DNA of 64,000 nt from Chitinophaga pinensis (GTDB taxonomy: Bacteria; Bacteroidota; Bacteroidia; UBA7662): positions 434,001 to 498,000 of the forward strand of contig CAMCHJ010000001.1 in the NCBI GenBank assembly GCA_945874665.1, in the 5' to 3' direction. The position numbers and the translations under genes were made by a program. Shown piece by piece: positions 38,705 through 47,220 of this stretch; the stretch's first letter is position 1, and each line of letters begins with the position of its first letter. Below the pieces are notes generated by a model. It was not told the DNA's origin and ran no database searches. It saw only the letters and a list, made by a program, of their open reading frames with translations.

Positions 38705-39540
38705 TATGTGCTTGATGCCCGCGAAAATACCCAAAAAAATGTAAGACTTTGATATCGTACGCCTAATACAAAGGCACGCCAAAGCATCCAACTCAAAATC
38801 GACCAGCGTGGACCGCCAGTGCGGATGAAGGCCCAGCCATCGCGACAATACACAGTGTATCGGGCTAAACGCTGTTCAAAGGTGGCGCTTTCCACTCCCG
38901 ATAAGCGGTGTTCTCAGGTAGTCGGTACCAAAACGGCCGTTGGAAAGGACTTGCGAAAAAAATAGGTGAATGCTAAATCACTGAAATCCAAGGTTACTGC
39001 TGCCCGGTGGCCACCCGCTTGGGTGTAGGCCGATAACCTAAGGAGCATGCCAGCGTTAATGGGCGCGAATTCAGTTAAAGCATACAATTCGGGCGGCGCG
39101 TTTTCTGCAACCCAAGTACGCCCCCACCGCAAAGGAGCCGGTGATATTACTTTTGCCTCGTGGTAAATTAAGGGTGTAAAAAGCGGCGTGTCGGGATGCT
39201 TTTGAACGGCTTCTTGATAGGCCTCGAACCAATCAGCCGCAAAATCACTGTCTTGGTCTAGTAACAGCAACCACGTTGCTCCTAAGTCCGCTGCAACCGC
39301 CGCCGCACGTAAATACGCAGCACTTACACCTGGGTTTTCGGGGTGATGTTCGTAGTGGATGTTGGTGGGGAGGTTGTTGGTGGCAGCTGGACTGTTGTCA
39401 TACACCAGCCAATGCATGCTGCTGCCAGCTGCGGTGGCATGCAGCGATTGCCAAGTGCGGCTCTGCTGTGGTGCTTGCCCATAACTAACTAAAACAGCTA
39501 GCAATTTTTGAGGAGATATGGTATTTATAAGCCCAGCCAT
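38701..39540 (-). pseudogene. GT2 (rhamnosyltransferase-like) gene split by an in-frame TGA
   Basis: Start ATG at 39538-39540. The frame has LLAVLVSYGQ, YDNSPAAT and the metal site LLLDQDSDF, then meets TGA at 38914-38916 just after AVLVPTT. The same frame continues with EHRLSG, FEQRLARYTVYCRDGW and a hydrophobic end to a second TGA at 38701-38703. These are the residues expected at the C-terminus of such enzymes (a conserved H-LSG followed by an R-Y--Y-RD segment). Without the first TGA the product would be about 279 aa, normal for the family. Either a nonsense mutation, a sequencing error or readthrough. The second TGA overlaps the TTG start of the ligase-like gene. Confidence 0.85.
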
Positions 39541-40418
39541 GCCCGCAATTTCCAGAAAAAATACCGCATTCCTTGTCTTTCGGCAAGTGGGTCCTGCAAA
39601 AGATGTTGCGCGGCTTTGTAGTTTTTGGCGAGCACCAATTGACTGGCTTGTCCTACTAAATGCCGCCCCAAATAATCGTACACTGCCTCCAATTGGGGAT
39701 GCTGAAGCGCTGCCGCTTGTTGGGCAATGCGCTTTACAAAAGGCCAAGCTTGGGTTTGCACCTCACTTCGCGTGGCCATATTTAAGGCGTCTTGGTGATA
39801 ATAGGCGCATACTTTTTTGTCAAATGCTACTGGATACTGCAAAGCAATGCGCGCCCACAGGTCTTGATCTTCGCCTATACGCTCTCCCACCGCAAAGCCA
39901 CCCATACTTTGGCATACCTTTGCATCAATGGCAACTGAGGAAGCCGTTGCAACCATATCACCTTTGGTTACTAATTCGAAATAATTGGGCAGATAGCCTC
40001 TTGAGAAGTTTTTGGGGAGCGGCTGCTGCGGCGCTTTAAGTCGGTTTTCCCATTTAAAAGCATAGCCGATAGCATACCAACCTGCCTCGGGAAAATCGTT
40101 TATGAGGGCTTGAAGTGTGGTTAAAAAATCGGGTTCCCAGCTATCATCGGCATCTAAAAACACCATAAAATCGCCCTGGGCTGCGTTTATGCCAGCATTG
40201 CGTGCCTGCGACACACCACGTTCATTTATTTGCAGCAAACGTACTGGGGCACCAAAAGCGGTTGCAAGCGCAGGTCCCGTGTCGGTGCTGCCATTATCCA
40301 CTACTAAAATCTCAAAAGCGACTGTCTTTTGGGCTGCTACACTTTCCAAGGTACGCAGGAGGGTAGCTTCTTTATTGTAAAGCGGAATGATTACCGAAAA
40401 TCGGATGGTGTTATACAT
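39525..40418 (-). CDS. GT2 glycosyltransferase
   Basis: 297 aa. FSVIIPLYNKEATL, DNGSTDTGPA (about 37-46) and LDADDSW (about 88-94) mark the GT-A nucleotide and metal sites; ARNAGINAAQGD lies between them, a standard family 2 motif. The C-terminal 80 residues are helical. Overlaps the next gene by 16 nt and the previous by 8 nt within the operon. Confidence 0.93.
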   Translation of the reverse strand: MYNTIRFSVIIPLYNKEATLLRTLESVAAQKTVAFEILVVDNGSTDTGPALATAFGAPVRLLQINERGVSQARNAGINAAQGDFMVFLDADDSWEPDFLTTLQALINDFPEAGWYAIGYAFKWENRLKAPQQPLPKNFSRGYLPNYFELVTKGDMVATASSVAIDAKVCQSMGGFAVGERIGEDQDLWARIALQYPVAFDKKVCAYYHQDALNMATRSEVQTQAWPFVKRIAQQAAALQHPQLEAVYDYLGRHLVGQASQLVLAKNYKAAQHLLQDPLAERQGMRYFFWKLRAWLGL

Positions 40419-41277
40419 ACCACATTTTACTTGCTGCTTCTCGGTAATAGTTTTTACCAGGTTGAAAGGAGCGCGAAAAATAGAAAAAGCTTAGCAAAAA
40501 ACGGCAATACAAGCTGGCCATACGTCCATAAAGCTTTCGGTAATAATACACCCTGCTTTTTTCAAAAAGTAATATTTTGGTGAGGCTCACTTTGTGATCG
40601 CTCGTGCCTACGTGGTGCATGATTTGAGGCCCTTGTAGTAGCACCCGCAACAACCCATGCTGCCGCATTCTAAACTGCCATTCTGTTTCTTCGTAAAAGA
40701 GAAAAAATACGGGATCAAAGCCACCCAACTGCTCATAAGTGCTGCGTGGTAAAAAAAGATCAGCACCTGATACGTAATCAACCATGCTGTAATGCGCTTG
40801 CTGGCGCAGTTGCAGCTCATACGGAAAGAAATTTGCTGGTAACATATCTAACGTGAGGCGAATCAAATCAGGGAAATTTCCGGCACTTACTTCGGGCTGG
40901 AGGTTTTGACTGACTAGTGGAAAGCCAAGAACGCCTACGCCGCTACTGTGCTCGCTTTCAAAAAACGACAAGCCAGCGCCCATGGCATCACCTAGCAGCT
41001 CCGTGTCAGGATTCAGCAAAAAAAAGTAGTCACCCCTAGCCTGAGCCATTCCTAAGTTATTGGCGCGGCCAAAGCCCAAGTTTCCGCCGGCTTCAATCAA
41101 TTTCACCCATGGAAATTCTGTACGTAACCAGTGTACGGTATCATCTTCGGAGGCATTATCCACCACGATCACCTCATCGCGAGCTGCTTGTAGGTAAATC
41201 GACAGTTTTTGCAAACAACTTCGCAAATATGCCGAGCAGTTGTACGAAACAATGATAACACTTACGCGATTACTCAT
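40411..41277 (-). CDS. GT2 glycosyltransferase (rhamnosyltransferase-like)
   Basis: 288 aa. VSVIIVSYNCSAYL, DNASEDDTV (about 37-45), NLGFGRANNLGM and LNPDTEL as metal site (about 92-98), then DYVSGADLFLPRS and EETEWQFRMRQHG, the acceptor-side motifs of the WcaA/RfbN-type family. Overlaps the methyltransferase gene by 4 nt. Confidence 0.94.
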   Translation of the reverse strand: MSNRVSVIIVSYNCSAYLRSCLQKLSIYLQAARDEVIVVDNASEDDTVHWLRTEFPWVKLIEAGGNLGFGRANNLGMAQARGDYFFLLNPDTELLGDAMGAGLSFFESEHSSGVGVLGFPLVSQNLQPEVSAGNFPDLIRLTLDMLPANFFPYELQLRQQAHYSMVDYVSGADLFLPRSTYEQLGGFDPVFFLFYEETEWQFRMRQHGLLRVLLQGPQIMHHVGTSDHKVSLTKILLFEKSRVYYYRKLYGRMASLYCRFLLSFFYFSRSFQPGKNYYREAASKMWYV

Positions 41278-41900
41278 AACTGTGCTACAATGCCATATTG
41301 CATGGGTAAAAAATCACGGGTATAACCGAAGGTCACAGCCGTCATCATCCGCCATTTGAAGCTATCGATGGCATTCAAAGGCGCGCAAGTCTGTACCCGA
41401 TAGCCACAGTCTTCAAACATTTTGACAATGCTTTTTTTGGTGAAGAAGCGCATGTGCGTGCGGTCAAGGATGCCCGATTCGGTGTATACCCAGTCTTTGC
41501 TTTTAAAAAGCAAGAGGATGTTTTCAGCGAACAAAAAATTGGGAATGCTGGCGTATACCCGTGCGCCAGGAGCTAAAAAGGGCTGAATGTCGCGTAAAGT
41601 TTGCCAAGGATCAACCATGTGTTCGAGTACGTCGTTAAAAAAAACGGCATCAAAATAGCCTCTGGGGAGCTGTGAACCCACGGCTTCAAAAGTACCGTGG
41701 AGTACTTGATGCATGGTCTTGCGTGCTTCAACGGCTGCCCGCTCATCCATTTCGATGCCCCACGCTTCAGTCCCAAATTGCTGCAACAAAGCGGTAGCAA
41801 AGCGACCTTCACCGCAGCCAACATCTAACAAGCGTTTAGGCGCATGTTGTACCAGGGCCATTACCTCTTCGCGGTTGTGTGTGTAATAGGTTGTATTCAT
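41274..41900 (-). CDS. Class I SAM-dependent methyltransferase
   Basis: 208 aa from the ATG at 41898-41900, which overlaps the flippase stop (ATGA); an in-frame ATG 21 nt upstream is less likely. SAM site LLDVGCGEGRF (motif I), an acidic residue ending strand 2 (GIEMDERA), and FNDVLEHMVDPWQTL with the post-motif typical of Methyltransf_11/23 proteins. In a polysaccharide operon this probably methylates a sugar or caps a chain; the acceptor is not evident. Confidence 0.9.
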   Translation of the reverse strand: MNTTYYTHNREEVMALVQHAPKRLLDVGCGEGRFATALLQQFGTEAWGIEMDERAAVEARKTMHQVLHGTFEAVGSQLPRGYFDAVFFNDVLEHMVDPWQTLRDIQPFLAPGARVYASIPNFLFAENILLLFKSKDWVYTESGILDRTHMRFFTKKSIVKMFEDCGYRVQTCAPLNAIDSFKWRMMTAVTFGYTRDFLPMQYGIVAQL

Positions 41901-43195
41901 AAGGGTAGGGTGGATTTCCAAATACGTAACTCAGGGTGCCGCACCTCAGTGCCCCAAATTAACCCCAAAGCTATAACAAGCTCTGCAACTAATAACGATA
42001 TACCCGTGCCAATTTCTTGTAAGCTGGGCGCGAGTGCTATATTTAAAAGCACACCAGTGGCGGCCGCGATGACCATTACCCGAGCATACCATTTTTGGCG
42101 GTTTGAAGCAAGAAGCATTTGGTAGGAAGGCATGTTGAAGGCGATCAAAACCGGCAAAGGAAGGAGGATGTAAAGCAGTCGAAGCACGGCGGTATCGGCA
42201 TTTCCAGTGATGATTTCGACCAACTGCGGGGCCAATGCATAAAGTATAAGCACTGCTGAAACAACGCCAAACAGCAACATTGCCAATATTTTCCGAAGAA
42301 ACTGTCTGATTTGTAACAACCCCTGAGCAGCCAATTGGCTTACTTTAGGGTAAATGACCGAAAACAAGGTGCTTAGGCCGAGCCGGAAAACGAGCAATAC
42401 TTTTTCAACCGCCGCAAACACACCCATATTGCGGTCACCCGTAAAAAATCCCAAAATTACCAAGGCGCTATTGGTGTAGATGGCTACGCTCAAACTGCTT
42501 ACAAAAACCGGCCATCCGCTTGTTAAGCTGTGCCAAATAGCGGTCCAGCTAGGTACAGTGAATTGCAGTCGATAGCGTTGTAGCACAAAAAAAAAGCCCA
42601 TTGCAGCAGTCAAAAAATGACTGCCTACATAAAAAAGAATCAAAAGCCAAAGCTGATCTGCCGCGCGAACGAACATAAAGACGAGTAATACATACAAGGC
42701 TTTGTTGAAAAAGCTGAGCCAAGCCAAGGTGCGAAAGGCTTGAACGCCTTGTAAAAACCAAGTGGGGAGCAGCATGTTGGCAGGCACCATCAAAAACACC
42801 AATACCCAAAGATCAAAGCTGATTTTTCGGTCTGGCAACAAGCTGTACAAAAGCAGCAGTGCCAAAAAAGCAGGAATCAGCAACAATACTTGGGTTACCC
42901 ACTTTACACTAAACATATGCGAAAGCGCTGCAGGATCGTTTTGCTTCATGGCCACATCTCGGGTGCCAGTAAGCGTTAACCCATAATCTACCAAAACCAC
43001 CAAAAAGCCTGCAACAGCTAATAAATAATTGAAGACACCAAAAACCTCAAGCCCCATTACCCGGATAAGGTAGGGTATGGTAAAAAGCGGCATCAACACA
43101 TTCAAAGCTTGCACGGCCGACATGGAGAAAAAATGACCAATTAACGGACTTTGAAATATGCGTAGGGAGTTTTTCAGATAATTGGTATTTTGCAT
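41897..43195 (-). CDS. Wzx-type oligosaccharide flippase
   Basis: 432 aa, about 12 to 14 membrane helices with the polysaccharide-flippase pattern, including an N-terminal NVLMPLFTIPYLIRVMGLEVFGVFNYLLAV and GTRDVAMKQND, shared with RfbX/Wzx. It should move lipid-linked repeat units to the periplasmic face. First gene of an eight-gene minus-strand operon. The upstream gap to the divergent DUF456 gene is only 26 nt; a near-consensus TAAGTTTA lies 1 nt before the ATG. Confidence 0.9.
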   Translation of the reverse strand: MQNTNYLKNSLRIFQSPLIGHFFSMSAVQALNVLMPLFTIPYLIRVMGLEVFGVFNYLLAVAGFLVVLVDYGLTLTGTRDVAMKQNDPAALSHMFSVKWVTQVLLLIPAFLALLLLYSLLPDRKISFDLWVLVFLMVPANMLLPTWFLQGVQAFRTLAWLSFFNKALYVLLVFMFVRAADQLWLLILFYVGSHFLTAAMGFFFVLQRYRLQFTVPSWTAIWHSLTSGWPVFVSSLSVAIYTNSALVILGFFTGDRNMGVFAAVEKVLLVFRLGLSTLFSVIYPKVSQLAAQGLLQIRQFLRKILAMLLFGVVSAVLILYALAPQLVEIITGNADTAVLRLLYILLPLPVLIAFNMPSYQMLLASNRQKWYARVMVIAAATGVLLNIALAPSLQEIGTGISLLVAELVIALGLIWGTEVRHPELRIWKSTLPL

Positions 43196-43764: not shown

Positions 43765-45165
43765 ATGTCACTCTCTCTCAAACCGCTGCTGCTTCTGCTT
43801 CTTGCCACTGCGCTTCTCGCTTGTTCGCCAAGTCGCAGTTTCACGAAGCAGGGTAAAAAGTTAGCTACTGCAGGTTTGCACGACGAAGCCAGTTTGGCAT
43901 TTATGCAGGCTTTGGGCCACGATCGCGCTAACATTGATGCGCGGGTGGGTTTGCGTTTATCTGGTCAACAGGCTTTAAATACGTATTTAGATCGGTTTTT
44001 TAGGTCGCACGGACAGCAGCAATATAAAGAATCGGTGTACGCCTACCGCAAGGCCGATCAATTTTACGTGAGTGTAACGGCGCTCAATATCGACTTAGAA
44101 TTCCCCCCATATTACAAACAGAACTACGAAGAGGACCTGGCCATTTATTTGGAAGGCATGTATGTGGAAGGTCAAGGACACCTCAAAGCCAAACGCTTTA
44201 CGGAGGCAGAAGCACTCTTTAATGAAATCAACACTTTGCGGCCAGGTTATAAAGATGTAGGCAATTTGAAAATGATGTCAAAAATCATTCCTGCCTACGT
44301 TGCGGGCCAACTCGCTTTTGAAGCGGAGCAATATCGAAAGGCCTACAATCATTTTAATGATGTTTTTGCGCTCAATCCCAATCACGAAGACGTGGCTGCT
44401 TTGCGACGTGTGGCTAAAGAGCGTGCCACCCTTACCATTGCGGTGATGCCTTTCGAAAATAGCCTTTCTTACGCTTATGCTACCAATATCACCTCCTTTG
44501 TAGTAAGCGAGCTGTCGAAAGCCAACAATGAGTTTTTGGTGCTAATTGACCGTGAGCACACCGATAAAATCATCAAAGAGCAGAAGTTTAACCTCGCTTT
44601 TGGGAGTGATGAAGGCAGCAGCATGCGCGTAGGGGAGTTGATGGGTGCCAAGCTGATTCTCACCGGGCGTTTGCTCGACTTAGGCATTATCAATCCCGAG
44701 TTACAGCAAAAAGAAAAGACGGGCTACGAGTCATACATCGAAAAAGTGTATAACGCTGAGAAAAAACGCACCGAAAACATCACGCGCTATCGCAAAGTAA
44801 TGTACACCGAGTTTGGCGGGGCCAGTTCGGTACGCATGAAAGTGCAATACCAGCTCATCAATGCCGAAACAGGTAAAATATTGCTTTCAGATGTTTTTGT
44901 GGAGGCGGAGCGCGATGAAGTGGCTTACATCAGTTACGATGGCAATGCCCGCAATTTGTTTGCTGGGGTTTGGAGATCGCGCAACGAAATCCACTCCTCT
45001 GACAGGGTTTACCAGAGTTTTGCCGAAAAGCGCAAGGTAGACGAGTTGCTCAGCGGCAAGCGCGATTTTAGACCGATGAACAATATGCTTATCGATGTAC
45101 AAGGCCGCATCAGCAGCAAACTCACCCAGCAAGTGGTACAGTACGAAATACAACGCGGCCAATGA
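43765..45165 (+). CDS. Lipoprotein with TPR-like repeats and CsgG/FlgO-like domain
   Basis: 466 aa. Lipoprotein signal ending ALLAC (Cys20). Residues about 25-215 form helical repeats of TPR type (LATAGLHDEASLAFMQALG, KRFTEAEALFNEINTLRPGYKD, EQYRKAYNHFNDVFALNPNHED). From about 222 comes a CsgG/TolB-N-like domain: LTIAVMPFEN, FVVSELSKANNEFLVLIDREHTDKIIKEQKF, MGAKLILTGRLLDLG, and QYQLINAETGKILLSD. The insert where CsgG forms its barrel is strongly charged, so a pore is doubtful; FlgO- or LpoB-like roles fit better. Overlaps the LPP20 gene by 4 nt. Confidence 0.82.
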   Translation: MSLSLKPLLLLLLATALLACSPSRSFTKQGKKLATAGLHDEASLAFMQALGHDRANIDARVGLRLSGQQALNTYLDRFFRSHGQQQYKESVYAYRKADQFYVSVTALNIDLEFPPYYKQNYEEDLAIYLEGMYVEGQGHLKAKRFTEAEALFNEINTLRPGYKDVGNLKMMSKIIPAYVAGQLAFEAEQYRKAYNHFNDVFALNPNHEDVAALRRVAKERATLTIAVMPFENSLSYAYATNITSFVVSELSKANNEFLVLIDREHTDKIIKEQKFNLAFGSDEGSSMRVGELMGAKLILTGRLLDLGIINPELQQKEKTGYESYIEKVYNAEKKRTENITRYRKVMYTEFGGASSVRMKVQYQLINAETGKILLSDVFVEAERDEVAYISYDGNARNLFAGVWRSRNEIHSSDRVYQSFAEKRKVDELLSGKRDFRPMNNMLIDVQGRISSKLTQQVVQYEIQRGQ

Positions 45166-46541
45166 AAAAGCTCTCCTACCTAGTGCTTTTGCTCACCCTT
45201 GCGGCTTGTGCACCTAAAACCAAGCCAGTGGTGCAGCAGCCTGAACCGCGACCCAGCTGGGTACTGCAGCGCCCGATTGAGCCAGGGTACTATACAGGCA
45301 TTGGGGTGGTGCGTAAAAACAATGGGGACTTCGATCACCTGGAGCAGGCTAAAAAAAATGCCTTCAATGACTTGGTATCCCAGATACAAGTAACGGTACA
45401 AGCCAACTCCATTCAATCGCAATTAGAGCGCAACCGCGAGTTCAGCGATGAGTTCCGGTCCTTTACCCGCCTCACCTCTAACGTGGCCATAGAAGATTAT
45501 GAGCTGGTAAACAGCTGGCAAAACGAAACTGAATATTGGGTGTATTACCGGTTGTCGACGGCCAGCTACCGCGAGCAAAAGGAGCGCCGCATGCGGGCGG
45601 CCATCGATCAAAGCATAAACGCGATGAGTCGCGCCAAAAATGCAGAGCAGGCGGGTAATTTGATGGAGGCGTACGACTTTTACTTCCGCGCGTTGGAGGC
45701 TGTGAAGGTATATGTGGGGGAACCTTTGAGTTACGAAACGGGCGGTAGTCAGCATTTTTTAGGCAATGACTTATTGTCGGCCATCAATCAACTATCCCGC
45801 AACATCGCCATCCGCGTAAATGTAAGCAACGTAAAAACCCGTGTGGGGATGACGGTTCCAGAAGAATTGCTCATCAGCGTGGCCCACCCGCGGGTGAATG
45901 GCAAGCCTGCCGCAAATTTTCCGCTTAAAATCTACTTCACCCAAGGTGCTGGCACAATAATTGGTAACAGCGTAACAGATAAGGATGGAGTTTGCCGCAT
46001 TCGCATTGCTAACATCACTGCACGAGACGCGTTGCAGGAATTATTGATAGAACCAGATTTAGAAGGCTTACTCGCAAACGACCCGGCGCGGCAAATGTGG
46101 CTCAAGATCATCGATCCACAGTCGCTCCCCCGCGAAAAGGTGATTATCGAAGTCAGTCGGCCCGTACTCCACGTTTTAGGCAACGAGCGGCAGTTTGGCA
46201 ATGAACGTCAAGTCAACCTCCTCCAAGGAGCGGCCAAGCAACGCCTTTCAAAAGAAGGCATCCGCTTTTCGGAACGCAGCGAAGCGGTTGATTACCGGTT
46301 GGTGATAGAGTCGAACACCCGACAAGGCGGCGTGGCCAATGGCATGTACACCGCCCTGTTAGATGTAAAAATAGTGCTGATTGATGCGCAGGGCAACGAA
46401 AAGTATGCGCAAACCCTGAGTGGCATTCGCGGCGTACAACTCGATTACCCACGAGCAGCCGAAGCAGCTTACCGCAGGGCGGCCGAAGACCTGGAATTAA
46501 CCGTGATACCAAAAATGTTAAACGTAATTTATAACCTTTAA
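45162..46541 (+). CDS. LPP20-family lipoprotein
   Basis: 459 aa. Ideal lipobox LAAC (Cys16). Residues about 30-150 match the LPP20 pattern: PSWVLQRPIEPGYYTGIGVV, then EQAKKNAFNDLVSQIQVTVQANS and a W/Y-rich WVYYRLS strand. The middle has an Ig-like or transthyretin-like part (NFPLKIYFTQGAGTIIGNSVTDKDGVCRIRI, about 250-280). The C-terminal part ends with a TolB-like AAEAAYRRAAEDLEL. The combined layout recalls Vibrio FlgT/FlgP proteins of the outer-membrane flagellar ring, although no flagellar genes are seen here. Second gene of the lipoprotein operon. Confidence 0.8.
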   Translation: MKKLSYLVLLLTLAACAPKTKPVVQQPEPRPSWVLQRPIEPGYYTGIGVVRKNNGDFDHLEQAKKNAFNDLVSQIQVTVQANSIQSQLERNREFSDEFRSFTRLTSNVAIEDYELVNSWQNETEYWVYYRLSTASYREQKERRMRAAIDQSINAMSRAKNAEQAGNLMEAYDFYFRALEAVKVYVGEPLSYETGGSQHFLGNDLLSAINQLSRNIAIRVNVSNVKTRVGMTVPEELLISVAHPRVNGKPAANFPLKIYFTQGAGTIIGNSVTDKDGVCRIRIANITARDALQELLIEPDLEGLLANDPARQMWLKIIDPQSLPREKVIIEVSRPVLHVLGNERQFGNERQVNLLQGAAKQRLSKEGIRFSERSEAVDYRLVIESNTRQGGVANGMYTALLDVKIVLIDAQGNEKYAQTLSGIRGVQLDYPRAAEAAYRRAAEDLELTVIPKMLNVIYNL

Positions 46542-46553
46542 ATTAACCAAACC

Positions 46554-47150
46554 ATGAAACGCATTACCCTCCTCAAAAGCAGCTTGGTTCTCCTCGCGCT
46601 TACCCTCACCCTCGCCGGCACCAGCTGTAAGAGCAAGAAAAAGGCCGAAGTAATCACGCCTTCCTCACAAGGTGAAATTGAAGTAAAACTATATTGCTCT
46701 GGCGATGAATATTTCAGTACCGCAGAACAGTTTCGCGCCAATGCCGTAGGTGAAAGCATGGACCAAAACACAGCCAAGCGCAAGGCCCTCAACGAGGCCC
46801 GCACGCAGTTGGCATCTTCTATCCAAACCACCATCAAAGCCACCACCGACAACTACGTAAACTCGCGCGAGTTCAACAACAAAGAAGAAGTGTTGGAGCG
46901 TTTTGAGTCCTTAAGCCGTGAAGTTGTAAACCAACAGCTCAATGGCACCCGCACCATTTGCGAGCGCCTCACCAAAACCCCACAGGGTACGTTTAAGTCG
47001 TATGTGGCCATTGAACTAGGCGGTGAAGACTTCCTCAAGAGCATGAACGACCGTTTGAGCAAAGACGAGCGGCTGCGCATCGATTACGATTATGAAAAGT
47101 TCAAAGAGACCTTCGACAAGGAAATGGACAAGTTCGAAAAAGGCCGCTGA
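46554..47150 (+). CDS. Small LPP20-like lipoprotein
   Basis: 198 aa. Signal ending LAGTSC (Cys26), followed by a lysine-rich stretch. The body has the LPP20-like plan: GEIEVKLYCSGDEYFSTAEQFRANAVGESMDQNTAKRKALNEARTQLASSI (short glycine-rich strand, then a long helix), an amphipathic ERFESLSREVVNQQL and a terminal acidic/lysine coil. Third gene of the operon, 12 nt after the second, and closed by a strong terminator. Confidence 0.75.
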   Translation: MKRITLLKSSLVLLALTLTLAGTSCKSKKKAEVITPSSQGEIEVKLYCSGDEYFSTAEQFRANAVGESMDQNTAKRKALNEARTQLASSIQTTIKATTDNYVNSREFNNKEEVLERFESLSREVVNQQLNGTRTICERLTKTPQGTFKSYVAIELGGEDFLKSMNDRLSKDERLRIDYDYEKFKETFDKEMDKFEKGR

Positions 47151-47160
47151 GCCATTTTTT

Positions 47161-47199
47161 AAGCAAAAAAGCAGTTGATTTTCAGCTGCTTTTTTGCTT
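47161..47199 (+). terminator. Intrinsic terminator of the lipoprotein operon
   Basis: A perfect 14-bp stem, AAGCAAAAAAGCAG (47161-47174) and CTGCTTTTTTGCTT (47186-47199); its own right arm supplies the T tract. Confidence 0.85.
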
Positions 47200-47220
47200 T
47201 TAAGCTGCCAAGTGGAGGCT

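Follow-up and report, generated by a model that had tools for sequence, protein, structure and literature searches.

Three lipoprotein genes and their domains

The window, a 64,000-nucleotide stretch of Chitinophaga pinensis DNA (contig CAMCHJ010000001.1, positions 434,001 to 498,000), carries three lipoprotein genes in a row, here called P1, P2, and P3. All are on the plus strand and together span positions 43765-47150 in the list of open reading frames. P1 and P2 overlap by 4 nt, and P2 and P3 are separated by 12 nt. When folded, the RNA of positions 47155-47205 forms an 18-bp stem (-25 kcal/mol, z=-6.4) that is matched in stability by 0 of 200 shuffled sequences; the promoter/terminator scanner does not list this hairpin 3' of P3. 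The operon layout described in the initial annotation, closely packed genes closed by a strong terminator, agrees with both the coordinates and the folding. The features are as follows.

43765-45165, plus strand: P1, a 466-residue lipoprotein with lipobox Cys20, a TPR region (residues 22-221), and then a predicted C-terminal CsgG-fold domain
44431-44994, plus strand: CsgG/LpoB-superfamily domain of P1, about residues 223-410, from Pfam CsgG in orthologues and Foldseek
44692-44832, plus strand: long β-hairpin of P1, residues 310-356, at the place of CsgG TM1, from the AlphaFold2 (AF2) model and homologue alignment
45162-46541, plus strand: P2, a 459-residue lipoprotein with an LPP20 domain, a helical stretch, an immunoglobulin (Ig)-like domain, and an LptE-like domain
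45252-45554, plus strand: LPP20 (SHS2-like) domain of P2, residues 31-131, from PF02169, the HP1454 profile match, and the fold of Lpp20 (5ok8)
45807-46055, plus strand: Ig-like β-sandwich of P2, residues 216-298, from Big_1 in orthologues and AF2 strands
46134-46529, plus strand: LptE-like domain of P2 (LptE/TolB-N/CsgG-core type fold), residues 325-456, from Foldseek
46554-47150, plus strand: P3, a 198-residue lipoprotein with an LPP20 domain (residues 64-147) and CKSKKK at the lipobox Cys
47161-47199, plus strand: terminator-like hairpin with an 18-bp stem and A- and U-rich flanks, from RNA folding

In the P1 protein of the window, the Pfam scan detects TPR and a weak match to LpoB (PF13036, E=0.03, 14.7 bits vs a cut-off of 22.3). 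Neither CsgG (PF03783) over the Pfam cut-off nor TIGR02722 is found, and a PDB search with the single sequence returns nothing. Among its orthologues, Pfam CsgG matches 7 of 12 (best E=1.3e-11) and LpoB 6 of 12 (best 7e-6). The orthologue of G005, which is from the same family and 56% identical, is over the CsgG cut-off (E=6.7e-8), and many over-cut-off matches of a class-wide CsgG search are P1 loci. The AF2 model of P1 (pLDDT 88) has a TPR solenoid at residues 22-221, an α/β domain from residue 223, and long strands at residues 297-390. When this model is compared with the PDB by Foldseek, places 1-24 are all taken by CsgG (E=7e-6 to 1.6e-4, prob 1.0); below them stand FlgT (3w1e, E=8e-4), the LPHT flagellar ring (8z5n, E=1e-3), GNA1162, HpaA, and PelC, among others. 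An hhalign comparison of the P1 domain with three true CsgG proteins gives E=9e-4 but a probability of 23% with a shallow template; the CsgG assignment is therefore based on the Pfam matches and the fold search. As modeled, the C-terminal domain of P1 is a CsgG fold, firm in the orthologues and sub-threshold in the window protein, consistent with the TPR plus CsgG-like lipoprotein first proposed.

The hairpin at the place of CsgG TM1 (residues 310-356) is exactly 47 residues long in 38 of 38 homologues. On average, 34% of residues 314-350 are charged, a share that is 18-21% in the TM1 segments of three true CsgG proteins from Bacteroidia. The P1 segment also shows no alternating hydrophobicity, that is, the hairpin is not amphipathic. 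We take this hairpin to be conserved and soluble and not a pair of membrane strands.

P2 matches LPP20 (PF02169) over the cut-off (E=9e-11, 42.6 bits vs 25.9), and the best PDB sequence match of its profile is H. pylori HP1454 (PDB 4kzs, E=4e-4). Its AF2 model (pLDDT 86) comprises the LPP20 domain, a helical stretch, an Ig-like sandwich, and a C-terminal LptE-like domain. In the Foldseek search, the N-terminus matches Lpp20 (5ok8) and the C-terminal domain matches LptE best (7rxu, E=2.8e-6; 3bf2, TMt 0.68). The initial annotation had recognized the LPP20 lipoprotein and had missed the LptE-like domain. The insert that it called transthyretin-like is better described as Ig-like, as residues 216-298 are modeled with seven strands and Big_1 is found in 5 of 14 orthologues (best E, 3.6e-6, in a homologue). 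The predicted folds of P1 and P2 are thus those of CsgG and LPP20, and not unrelated ones.

P3 by itself stays below the LPP20 cut-off (E=5e-4, 20.8 bits vs 25.9), and hhalign of P3 to the LPP20 domain of P2 (E=8.5e-6) backs its designation as a small LPP20-like lipoprotein. It is the most constrained of the three, with a median identity of 53% compared with 32% for P1 and 26% for P2.

An N-terminal lipoprotein signal with a Cys is present in each of the three proteins. Lipoboxes are recognized in 34 of 43 P1, 38 of 52 P2, and 41 of 49 P3 homologues. In Bacteroidota lipoproteins, acidic residues after the Cys are known as surface-export signals. None of the 113 recognized lipoboxes has more than one acidic residue between +2 and +6; at these positions, P3 has a mean net charge of +3, its residues after the Cys (CKSKKK) being strongly basic. 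The lack of an acidic signal argues against surface export, and these sequences point to a periplasm-facing location at the outer membrane (OM) for the trio.

Distribution of the trio and related gene pairs

We searched a sample of 247 Bacteroidia genomes, counting P1 where the match is strong and near full-length. P1 is present in 53, P2 in 52, and P3 in 56 genomes, and all three are together in 48 (Fisher p<1e-36, a value inflated by phylogeny), which is not the rare coincidence that would separate the genes. In particular, P3 is present in every one of the 52 genomes with P2. These 52 genomes are spread over 13 families, and several families (for example, f1, f7, f13, f17, f30, f35, and f77) have both P2-bearing and P2-free members. 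The patchiness within families indicates that the trio does not mark one clade and makes repeated joint gain or loss likely. A scan of genome contigs with P2 gives a single match, a metagenome-assembled genome of the same genus.

P1 lies directly 5' of P2 in 41 genomes. P3 is linked in 33 genomes, 3' of P2 in 21, 5' of P2 in 5, and 5' of P1 in 7, and is located elsewhere in 19. That P3 is kept in these 19 genomes though unlinked speaks for a functional tie more strongly than adjacency does. In addition, pairwise identity in P1 rises and falls with that in P2 (r=0.94, kinship not removed).

The same parts also occur in other arrangements. G141, from another class of the same phylum, has a tight unit on one strand made up of a gene for a canonical LpoB (over the TIGR02722 cut-off) and, after it, genes for a 442-residue TPR lipoprotein and a 360-residue LPP20 protein; next to this unit, in divergent orientation, are a small P3-family LPP20 gene and another LPP20 gene. 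The G141 TPR protein has no significant similarity to the P1 profile (E=0.07), so P1 cannot be called a fusion of exactly those genes. A 206-residue CsgG/LpoB-fold protein is paired with P2 in G143, a WD40-CsgG protein is paired with LPP20 in G070, and a CsgG-TPR protein, with the domains in reverse order, accompanies P2 and P3 in G384 and G396. Besides the main trio, G411 (L218:2839-5912) and G315 (L219:2785-5871) carry a paralogous pair, a CsgG-fold gene followed by a P2-like gene of LPP20/Ig/LptE type. These variants indicate that the CsgG/LpoB fold and LPP20 are repeatedly paired and that the scaffold domain is exchangeable. The P2 and P3-like genes of G384 (L158, 1336-8719) cluster with a caspase-like (C14) peptidase as well as with the CsgG-TPR protein.

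Known systems and possible functions

The genome to which the window belongs, which is 96% complete, contains no match to FlhA and none to CsgG. Across the sample, FlhA gives two matches only, one partial (G028) and one sub-threshold (G373), and the trio is absent from the three genomes that have true CsgG (E<1e-60). Neither protein tracks the trio, in line with the initial annotation, which saw no flagellar or curli genes. The partial FlhA match of G028 (contig C38:88573-89307, E=4e-71) is isolated and may be contamination.

The parallel first drawn with FlgO, FlgP, and FlgT of the Vibrio H-ring holds at the level of folds, as seen in the P1 matches to FlgT and LPHT; these OM-associated proteins have LPP20/SHS2 and CsgG/TolB-N type folds, as does the trio. 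It does not hold as membership. Neither the trio nor 12-14 orthologues of P1 and P2 match Pfam FlgO (PF17680) or FlgT, indicating that the trio is not part of the H-ring family, and apart from the two matches above the FlhA search finds no flagellar gene in its host genomes. With the curli channel CsgG, P1 shares the fold of the C-terminal domain, including the hairpin position, but P1 has an N-terminal TPR array, a longer, charged, and non-amphipathic hairpin, and no curli genes. LpoB (PF13036, TIGR02722) is likewise an OM lipoprotein of the same superfamily, but P1 of the window is below the LpoB cut-offs, and 30 trio genomes have no match over cut-off to UB2H, the domain through which LpoB activates PBP1B.

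Among known arrangements, a lipoprotein set of Campylobacterota comes closest. In C. jejuni, three lipoproteins are co-transcribed from cj0089-cj0090-cj0091, and one of them, Cj0089 (453 residues), has TPR (PMC3100323). Cj0091 is orthologous to HP1457, an LpoB homologue, and HP0018 is the homologue of Cj0089. Cells that have lost HP0018 hypervesiculate and change in shape, and MltD and AmiA are recovered in HP0018 pull-downs (PMC11394524). HP1456 (Lpp20) and HP1454, which come from one operon, bind FlgP and FapH, two accessory proteins of the flagellum (PMC11756786). Like the trio, this set (Cj0089-0091, HP0018, and HP1457-1454) consists of linked lipoproteins with TPR, LpoB-type, and LPP20 members. 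The trio differs in joining TPR and the CsgG/LpoB fold in one protein, in the Ig-like and LptE-like domains added in P2, and in the lack of flagella. The kinship is judged from the parts, with HP1454 alone compared by sequence, and common parts are not proof of common descent. The literature searches gave no description of the trio in Bacteroidota, in agreement with the initial annotation, while the wider kind is known from Campylobacterota. A mention of "LPP20" in an Amoebophilus paper proved to be the locus tag lpp2082 and not the family.

In our reading, the trio is the Bacteroidota form of a module that combines CsgG/LpoB, TPR, and LPP20 parts, a known but poorly understood kind. With about even confidence, we propose that it forms a periplasm-facing OM scaffold for envelope-wall coupling or stability, with P1 as the oligomeric core, the TPR regions as docking arms, and the LPP20 domains of P2 and P3 as a surround. 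P1 would self-associate through its CsgG-fold domain and the conserved long hairpin into a ring or an arc, and enzymes of the envelope or the wall may dock on its TPR arms. Around P1, P2 and P3 would place LPP20 units, as LPP20-fold proteins do in flagellar discs. FlgP, FlgT, and Lpp20 have a common SHS2-like fold, FlgP and FlgT form OM-linked discs, and ring formation in the FlgP type is tied to a β-hairpin insert between the SHS2 helix and the second strand (PMC12222027). Such an assembly would tie the OM to the wall or stiffen the OM and would not be part of a motor.

Several observations weigh against this scaffold. The Foldseek TM-scores of P1 are low (0.2-0.6), in part from the two-domain query, for which low scores are expected, and the fold match is thus a local one. 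P2 has an insert of about 39 residues at the place of the FlgP hairpin insert, but this region (residues 75-113) is modeled as a helix with low confidence (block means about 54-67). P1 occurs without P2 and P3 in some genomes (G003, G006, G008, G276, and G368), indicating that it can work without them. Conserved neighbours pointing to wall or envelope enzymes are not found outside close relatives (own family or genus). G003, G006, and G008 represent a sister genus with genomes of 1.7-1.9 Mb; there and in G276 and G368, P1 may serve a separate function.

The initial annotation suggested a ring or an activator of peptidoglycan synthesis, and both would be conceivable roles of such a trio. A stricter form of the ring, in which a CsgG-like P1 ring with a TPR skirt is encircled by P2/P3 LPP20 subunits, would be a new non-flagellar, non-curli OM ring machine in Bacteroidota, drawn from the stock that also gave the flagellar H-ring and basal-disc proteins; we regard this as possible but doubtful. 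It is unlikely that P1, with P2 and P3, acts from the OM as an LpoB-like activator of a class A penicillin-binding protein. The LpoB matches of the P1 orthologues, the G141 locus, where a true LpoB has TPR and LPP20 partners, and the designation of HP1457 and Cj0091 as LpoB homologues (PMC11394524) are consistent with such an activator, but in the scanned P1 homologues the CsgG match is the stronger one and there is no linkage to a penicillin-binding protein gene. The absence of the docking domain UB2H also speaks against it, although G141 has a canonical LpoB and no UB2H over cut-off either, which makes this absence indecisive.

Quite unlikely is a secretion pore, with P1 as an oligomeric OM channel and P2 and P3 as accessory gate or plug. 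Solved CsgG structures are the top fold match of P1, its hairpin at the TM1 place is long and constant in length, and the C-terminal domain of P2 resembles LptE, the plug of LptD; however, their charge and lack of amphipathicity make the P1 hairpins look ill-suited to a membrane pore, and CsgE/F or substrate genes do not recur nearby. The same LptE-like domain could indicate an accessory of lipid or lipopolysaccharide transport at the OM, which we consider very unlikely, since this type of fold is common to TolB-N, PelC, GNA1162, and the CsgG core, all present in the same match lists, no lpt linkage is seen, and the patchy distribution is ill-suited to essential lipopolysaccharide export. An accessory of type IX secretion or gliding is highly improbable: SprA is present in all trio genomes but also in 239 of 247 genomes overall and is therefore uninformative, and linkage is lacking.

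If the scaffold interpretation is right, CsgG/LpoB-fold and LPP20 lipoproteins may represent a general envelope module, of which flagellar discs and rings are one specialized use. The trio provides a defined, compact gene set in which such a module can be studied without a flagellum, and it suggests a hypothesis on the lipoproteins Cj0089-0091 and HP0018/HP1457-1454, which are themselves poorly understood.

Neighbouring genes and a paralogue of P3

Searches for phage and defence families give no meaningful match. The operon is preceded by a DUF456 gene, upstream of which lies a minus-strand cluster at 39525-43195. Read by eye, this cluster contains look-alikes of two glycosyltransferases, a methyltransferase, and a flippase, and it is kept only in close relatives.

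A further LPP20 lipoprotein, P4, is homologous to P3 (hhalign E=8e-46) and is counted in 27 genomes, every one of which also has P3. In the genome of the window (G000), P4 is a P3-family gene on contig C2 at about 114092-114628 (L147:6093-6629, minus strand), between a gene for a 789-residue peptidase-like protein and an smpB-like gene. In G402 and G418 (L152), P4 adjoins P3.

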